Shown piece by piece: positions 8,671 to 25,308 of a stretch of DNA of 36,724 bases (position 1 is its first letter; every line of letters starts with the position of its first letter). The stretch spans positions 1-36,724 of the forward strand of contig JALWLU010000163.1 in the NCBI GenBank assembly GCA_026996325.1, given 5' to 3'. The notes beneath the pieces were generated by a model, which did no database searches, was not told the origin of the DNA, and was given only the letters and a program-made list of their open reading frames with translations. The translations under genes were made by a program, and so were the position numbers. The DNA comes from Sulfurovum sp. (lineage in GTDB: Bacteria; Campylobacterota; Campylobacteria; Campylobacterales; Sulfurovaceae).

Positions 8671-8750
8671 CCGTCATTCCTGCGAAGGCAGGAATCTTTA
8701 CGTCAATAAACAAAACAATATCAAGATCCCGCATCAAGTGCGGGATGACG
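8671..8750. repeat. REPIN-like pair of palindromes between convergent rpiB and trx
   Basis: CGTCATTCCTGCGAAGGCAGGAATC and GATCCCGCATCAAGTGCGGGATGACG, two different hairpins with inverted CGTCAT...ATGACG ends. Confidence 0.8.
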
Positions 8751-8754
8751 AGTG

Positions 8755-9126: not shown

Positions 9127-9232
9127 ATGTAATATCCTTATAGAGTTTATTAGCCACCATTATGACATATTGAGATAAAACTAACCATTCTTTTTATGCA
9201 CACAAGCTATGCTACAATTGATATCTGAAAAC

Positions 9233-9318
9233 AGGTTTCACCCAATGGCTCTGGCAGTCGCAAACGGCAAAGCCGCCCTACGGGTTGAGTGCTCCTTTGT
9301 CGCCATTGGGCGAAACCT
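9233..9318. repeat. 86-nt structured element, copy 1
   Basis: Terminal inverted repeat AGGTTTCACCCAATGGC/GCCATTGGGCGAAACCT around a core shared with 25111-25197 in inverse orientation. Confidence 0.85.
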
Positions 9319-9373
9319 ACTATCAAACAAAAGTTATTAAATCAATAAAACAGCCTAAATTAAAGGAAAAAAT

Positions 9374-25064: not shown

Positions 25065-25110
25065 ATAATTATCCTATGCTAAATTGAATTGTCTGAATCA
25101 TAGCTTACGA

Positions 25111-25197
25111 AGGTTTCACTCGATGGCGACAAAGGAGCACTCAACCCGCTAGGGCGGCTTTGCCGTTTGCGACTGCCAGAGCTATCGAGTGAAACCG
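25111..25197. repeat. 86-nt structured element, copy 2 (inverted relative to copy 1)
   Basis: GGTTTCACTCGATGGC...GCTATCGAGTGAAACC (16 pairs with one G.U) flanking the same core as 9233-9318. Confidence 0.85.
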
Positions 25198-25308
25198 ATG
25201 GTGCCCCAGAGACATTCTATTGTATCGGAGTATATCCAAAGATATTAAATCGGATGTTAACTCGATACTTCAACCAACTTTCGATAAAATCAAAAAAAAC
25301 GGCACAGT

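Follow-up and report, generated by a model that had tools for sequence, protein, structure and literature searches.

Two segments of about 86 nt in a 36,724-nt contig of Sulfurovum sp. (the whole stretch is referred to here as the window) share a nearly invariant core that is enclosed by a variable stem. The locus raises the question of whether a structured RNA or a mobile DNA element is present, and which strand carries the fold. A first-pass annotation of the window had placed the two segments at 9233 to 9318 on the minus strand and 25111 to 25197 on the plus strand, with cores identical except for a single indel, and all of this was reproduced. The changes that it had described in the closing stem, double changes that keep pairing and exchanges between Watson-Crick and wobble pairs, were also correct.

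Folded elements in the window

In order to describe the two copies, the parts of each folded element were assigned as follows.

9232-9319, minus strand: copy 1, folded element (cmsearch R1, 105.7 bits, E 8e-24)
9302-9319 and 9232-9249, minus strand: copy 1, arms of the closing stem P1
9250-9301, minus strand: copy 1, core (structure counted on alignments A2 and A4)
9297-9301, minus strand: copy 1 core, GACAA
9290-9296 with 9256-9262, minus strand: copy 1 core, stem P2, tandem G.A form
9276-9284, minus strand: copy 1 core, mini-hairpin H1
9265-9275, minus strand: copy 1 core, mini-hairpin H2
9250-9255, minus strand: copy 1 core, GCCAGA
25110-25198, plus strand: copy 2, folded element (cmsearch R1, 99.1 bits, E 3.5e-22)
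25110-25127 and 25181-25198, plus strand: copy 2, arms of P1
25128-25180, plus strand: copy 2, core (structure counted on alignments A2 and A4)
25128-25132, plus strand: copy 2 core, GACAA
25133-25139 with 25168-25174, plus strand: copy 2 core, P2
25145-25154, plus strand: copy 2 core, mini-hairpin H1
25155-25165, plus strand: copy 2 core, mini-hairpin H2
25175-25180, plus strand: copy 2 core, GCCAGA

On these strands the folds of the two copies had z scores of -5.0 and -4.2 relative to 200 dinucleotide shuffles and surpassed all, or all but one, of the shuffles. A 24-nt string from the core occurred twice in the window and not at all in shuffled sequence (0 expected).

A dispersed repeat family in Sulfurovaceae

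The window pair are members of a family of small, gene-less mobile DNA repeats with dozens of copies in Sulfurovum and its relatives. The first-pass annotation had described a two-copy element. However, searches of the host draft genome, from which its copy counts derive, returned 38 BLAST matches (long versions included) and 24 matches to a first covariance model (R1 cmsearch) built from 23 copies. The same 23-copy model had matches in 31 of 78 congeneric Sulfurovum MAGs, so that the searches of host and relatives that had been suggested at the outset did recover further copies. With a second covariance model, built from 48 diverse copies, four genomes belonging to other Sulfurovaceae genera each yielded 10 to 11 or more copies, and matches in two other families of Campylobacterales were weak but recurrent.

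A 33-nt core pattern, sought in 85,462 species genomes, was confined to Sulfurovum MAGs and one contig labeled Nitratiruptor. The latter (L307) has the exact core pattern, by transfer or mis-binning. Searches of a plasmid collection and of viral contigs gave nothing other than pattern matches at chance level. None of the Rfam 15 covariance models matched, either at gathering thresholds or up to E 10, and the family is missing from Rfam. The element was not described in the literature searched on MITEs and structured repeats of Sulfurovum and Campylobacter, a literature in which subscription journals were mostly outside reach.

Conservation of one branched fold on one strand

The fold consists of the stem P1, an internal loop (GACAA/GCCAGA), the stem P2, and a three-way junction that bears two mini-hairpins. 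P1 was present as first described, but rather than 16 bp it reaches 16 to 18 bp (up to ~22 in some copies), and its sequence is free. One side of the internal loop reads GACAA, and the other reads GCCAGA, GCCGGA, or GCAGGA. P2 (7 to 8 bp) takes either Watson-Crick forms or one with tandem G.A pairs (AGGAGCA/TGCGACT), and the first mini-hairpin is usually a GNA triloop. In single-stranded DNA, too, tandem G.A pairs and GNA triloops with a C-G closing pair are stable. In long versions of the element an ~80-nt arm substitutes for the second mini-hairpin, and one site can carry the short form in one species and the long form in another. At L008 (1903 to 2072) and in L021 to L028, the ~80-nt arm of the long form appears to contain hairpins of its own.

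Among 48 diverse copies, double-sided changes were found at 31 of 32 pairs, 93% of cells were paired, and the covariation score was 0.739, compared to 0.189 in shuffled alignments and ≤0.121 when the partners were slid; counts from alignment A4 lean towards the structure of the model because A4 was aligned to that structure, and A2, which was aligned by MAFFT, shows the same picture. Covariation beyond sequence relatedness, by which functional RNAs are recognized, was thus present and included changes at orthologous sites.

The P1 stem cells of 103 copies contained 170 G.T pairs versus 29 A.C pairs. Because G.T outnumbers A.C in the stem, the fold of one strand is selected, and the choice of strand that had been made from the G.U pairs of the two window copies generalizes to the family. 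A G.T pair at P1 positions 15 to 18 was present in 124 of 135 copies and can shift between positions 16 and 17. On the opposite strand the conserved wobbles become A.C mismatches and the tandem G.A pairs become C.T. Paired changes, G.T versus A.C counts, and the wobble together strongly support the proposal that structure and folding strand are under selection. The G.T and A.C counts also rule out the mRNA strand as the folding strand, which was an idea at first sight. Predicted DNA fold energies of a window copy differed little between the strands, and purging of copies by hairpin stability alone was rejected on this ground.

The folded segment as the center of an inserted unit

The gap between trxA and apt, which contains copy 1 in the window, was without the element in six relatives: G008, in which the flanks are ~90% identical, and five others. 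Copy 2 was absent at its site in four relatives (G008, G084, G079, and G067). Copies of the window type have common outer arms that form imperfect inverted repeats (flank consensus over 50 copies), and 8 exact 4-mer duplications were found at the right register of window-type units, compared to 0.5 on average. In a sister genus (G317), the same core lies inside units of 129 to 132 bp with 16-bp inverted ends, GGGCAYCTCTAAAAAC, and most of these units have exact 4-bp target duplications. The following units and ends were assigned in the window.

9220-9343, minus strand: copy 1, whole inserted MITE-like unit, 124 bp (empty trxA-apt site and register of terminal repeats and target duplications; exact ends predicted)
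9216-9219 (AATT) and 9344-9347 (AATA): copy 1, target-duplication-like flanks
25086-25217, plus strand: copy 2, whole inserted MITE-like unit, 132 bp (empty site in G008, G084, G079, and G067, and register; exact ends predicted)
25082-25085 (AATT) and 25218-25221 (TATT): copy 2, target-duplication-like flanks
25086-25101, plus strand: copy 2, left terminal repeat, degenerate (consensus GAACCCTCTGAATAAT; flank consensus over 50 copies)
25202-25217, plus strand: copy 2, right terminal repeat, degenerate (consensus ATTTTTCAGAGAACTC; flank consensus)

Because of the empty sites, the inverted outer arms, and the 4-bp duplications, the ~86-nt segment, once taken for the whole element, is recognized as the middle of a MITE. 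There is good support for a full unit that is a MITE of ~124 to 132 bp, bounded by terminal inverted repeats and by 4-bp duplications of the target, most clearly in the sister genus. Three of the features by which MITEs are identified, terminal inverted repeats, a target duplication of fixed length, and empty sites in relatives, were found.

A limited search of window-type and G317-type loci, several of them in draft genomes, found no autonomous transposon or transposase with the same ends. Copy-rich genomes, among them G427 (99% complete), have no Y1 transposases, and no Y1 gene adjoins a copy. Thus, Y1/RAYT transposases are not required by the element. Transposition as a single strand, in the manner of IS200/IS605 or REP/RAYT, would mean that a Y1 transposase acts on the branched hairpin, and a similar hairpin, strand asymmetry, and replication-strand bias are all seen in such systems. 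However, in addition to the distribution of Y1 genes, the units have 4-bp target duplications and inverted terminal repeats, and the strand that folds is the opposite one, not the lagging-strand template, which makes this route very improbable. Members of the IS200/IS605 family are not known to make target duplications.

Old copies between operon genes

Many copies have a P1 of their own, lack outer arms, and are located behind a stop codon between codirectional genes, often 2 to 28 nt past the stop codon and ahead of the next gene. These old copies could be a separate class because the terminal repeats are absent. The comEA-gltX and batC-batD sites are occupied in several species, with stems that are different but compensated, and hslV-hslU is a further site (domains were checked in these cases). 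Other sites, for which genes were named by eye, are infB-rbfA, rimP-ribD, and clpA-aat. The genes adjoining copies have no common function. Among the copies with the "other" P1, a class that is defined by P1 sequence and includes a few window-like variants (52 copies, 44 with both genes called), the folding strand was antisense to both flanking genes in 28, sense to both in 5, and mixed in 11.

The position behind stop codons suggested that the element might serve as a REP-like intercistronic hairpin in mRNA that tunes the stability or translation of the upstream gene. However, the mRNA has the other strand, on which the wobbles are A.C and the tandem G.A pairs C.T mismatches, and the orientation bias described below persists where flanking genes differ in direction. 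Thus, we give this role little credence.

It is also conceivable that the folding strand is transcribed into a structured RNA, either a cis element or a small RNA, that was spread by a MITE as its cargo and was later retained because it functions as RNA. The covariation, the conserved internal loop and junction, the exchange between tandem G.A and Watson-Crick pairs, and the obligatory wobble are typical of functional RNA. However, the folding strand of old copies is mostly antisense to both flanking genes and lies opposite the leading strand, adjoining genes share no function, no Rfam family matches even at E 10, and most congeners do not have the element. A retained RNA therefore seems rather unlikely. 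The first-pass annotation had proposed either a structured RNA or a mobile element recognized through its hairpin; empty sites, terminal inverted repeats, and target duplications bear out the mobile element, but an RNA nature of the folded molecule seems less probable, given the usual antisense position in old copies and an orientation that follows replication and not transcription.

Orientation of the folding strand relative to replication

In complete genomes, in which dnaA is at the contig start, the folding strand was the minus strand on the right replichore and the plus strand on the left. This rule was followed by 16 of 17 copies in three complete Sulfurovaceae genomes (10 of 11 in G149, 4 of 4 in G023, and 2 of 2 in G060). 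When GC skew, mostly over 20-kb stretches, was used as a proxy that was correct in 20 of 20 calibrations, 72 of 88 copies from 11 genomes had the fold on the strand opposite the leading strand (p about 1e-9), as did 37 of 41 copies whose flanking genes had no consistent direction (p 1e-7); these p values are optimistic because copies related by descent are not independent and were not collapsed. The mixed-gene contexts rule out an effect of the flanking genes as the main cause of the orientation. The bias was less pronounced in G008, from the lineage of the window itself, where 18 of 26 copies conformed. It was also less pronounced in a small G317 sample added later (8 of 12), half of which was judged on 3-kb stretches. 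Within the window, copy 2 obeys the orientation rule and copy 1 breaks it. Taken together, the strand rule appears to fit replication better than transcription.

Neither the paired changes nor the bias would need a function if templated (quasi-palindrome) repair kept the palindromes perfect and copies with the hairpin on the lagging-strand template were lost. Hairpins are prone to deletion, and templated repair also makes double changes. However, the preference for G.T over A.C, the fixed wobble, and the family-wide conservation of loop and junction would be left unexplained, and an element free of any function is considered improbable.

The explanation that we prefer, and rate at about an even chance, is that this is a Sulfurovaceae family of palindromic MITEs in which the core functions as a DNA hairpin specific to one strand. 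The unit inserts into intergenic DNA and would be moved via its terminal repeats by a transposase, probably of the DDE type, supplied in trans. Its center keeps one branched fold on one strand, with the stem free and the internal loop, the junction, and the loop-adjacent wobble fixed. Statistically, the folding strand is mostly the leading-strand template or, equivalently, the nascent lagging strand. The DNA hairpin may be exposed around the replication fork and recognized or tolerated in one orientation only. Copies that settled between operon genes would then be retained and evolve by compensatory changes. We infer both the action of the core as DNA and the reason for its orientation.

A stronger version is possible but doubtful: the core might be a signal in single-stranded DNA that is polar with respect to replication. 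Its branched hairpin would function only when it lies on the leading-strand template or nascent lagging strand, and the gene-less MITE would as a result insert or survive in a single direction relative to the fork; old copies in operons would be retained because they serve the host. The usual view of palindromic repeats in bacteria is that they are decaying transposon debris. Here the stem sequence turns over fully and the branched core, internal loop, and wobble pair persist, even at one operon site across species. If confirmed, the family would be a tractable one in which to study whether the spread or persistence of gene-less elements is governed by the structure of single-stranded DNA at the fork.

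Comparison with known repeats

The element is of a known kind, a MITE-like repeat; what sets it apart is the conserved strand-asymmetric branched core, the compensated turnover of the stem, and the orientation relative to replication. Correia/NEMIS, ERIC/IRU, and RUP are bacterial MITEs or palindromic repeats that, like the element, are short, gene-less, intergenic, and palindromic and have terminal repeats and target duplications. The long form of the element, too, has a reported counterpart in ERIC, where a longer variant arises from an insertion at a single internal site. In contrast to these repeats, the element has a branched, strand-asymmetric conserved core with a free stem sequence, its orientation is tied to replication, and it undergoes compensatory evolution at fixed loci.

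In integron attC sites a single strand folds, the stem sequence is free, unpaired bases are fixed, and the location is behind stop codons, all of which resembles the element. Membership among attC sites was rejected, as inspection of alignments and contexts by eye revealed no R'/R'' boxes and no cassette array, and the copies are scattered between core genes. IS200/IS605 elements share strand-specific hairpins and a replication-strand bias with the element, which differs from them in its 4-bp duplications, inverted terminal repeats, and use of the opposite strand.

REPs are 20- to 40-bp palindromes with GTAG or CGTC tags, and a survey of REP/RAYT systems that included the CGTC and GTAG families lists Sulfurovum sp. 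NBC37-1 (PMC3733652). REP, BIME, and REPIN repeats resemble the element in that they are palindromes between genes, are often located after stop codons, and occur in the same organisms. However, the element is 86 to 170 nt long, with a three-way junction, no GTAG or CGTC tag seen, and no link to a Y1 gene. It is thus neither a tagged palindrome of 20 to 40 bp nor the flank of a Y1 transposase, and REP/RAYT membership was rejected.

Other families of Campylobacterales (G129, G053, G308, G103, G121, and G132) have long palindromic repeats in which the apical three-way junction, TGCA-YYYAA-CCCGNAGGG-...-TT-TGCA, is nearly the same, but the internal loop is different and the stems are much longer. 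Several of them have ends resembling CTGACTAAATA...TATTTAGTCAG. Among such repeats of other Campylobacterales are L180 to L183 and L196 to L205 (families f15 and f18), in which the junction is on different stems and several ends resemble CTGACTAAATA.

Other observations were made in the course of the comparison. In G091 and G066 (L157 and L158), an element upstream of a thioredoxin gene is positioned like copy 1 of the window, though apt is elsewhere. A separate gene-less repeat of ~175 to 265 bp with GGGCACCTCTAATAACCC-like inverted ends is present in G015, G092, and G066 (L168, L172, and L174) and begins with GGGCACCTCT, as do the G317 units. One Sulfurovum genome (G097) has 31 Y1 transposase matches, several of them near-identical, which represents an active IS200-like expansion. 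Positions 8672 to 8751 of the window contain short REPs arranged head-to-head, CGTCATTCCTGC-GAAG-GCAGGAAT and ATCCCGCA-TCAAG-TGCGGGATGACG, a pair that fits the CGTC family reported from Sulfurovum NBC37-1 (PMC3733652).
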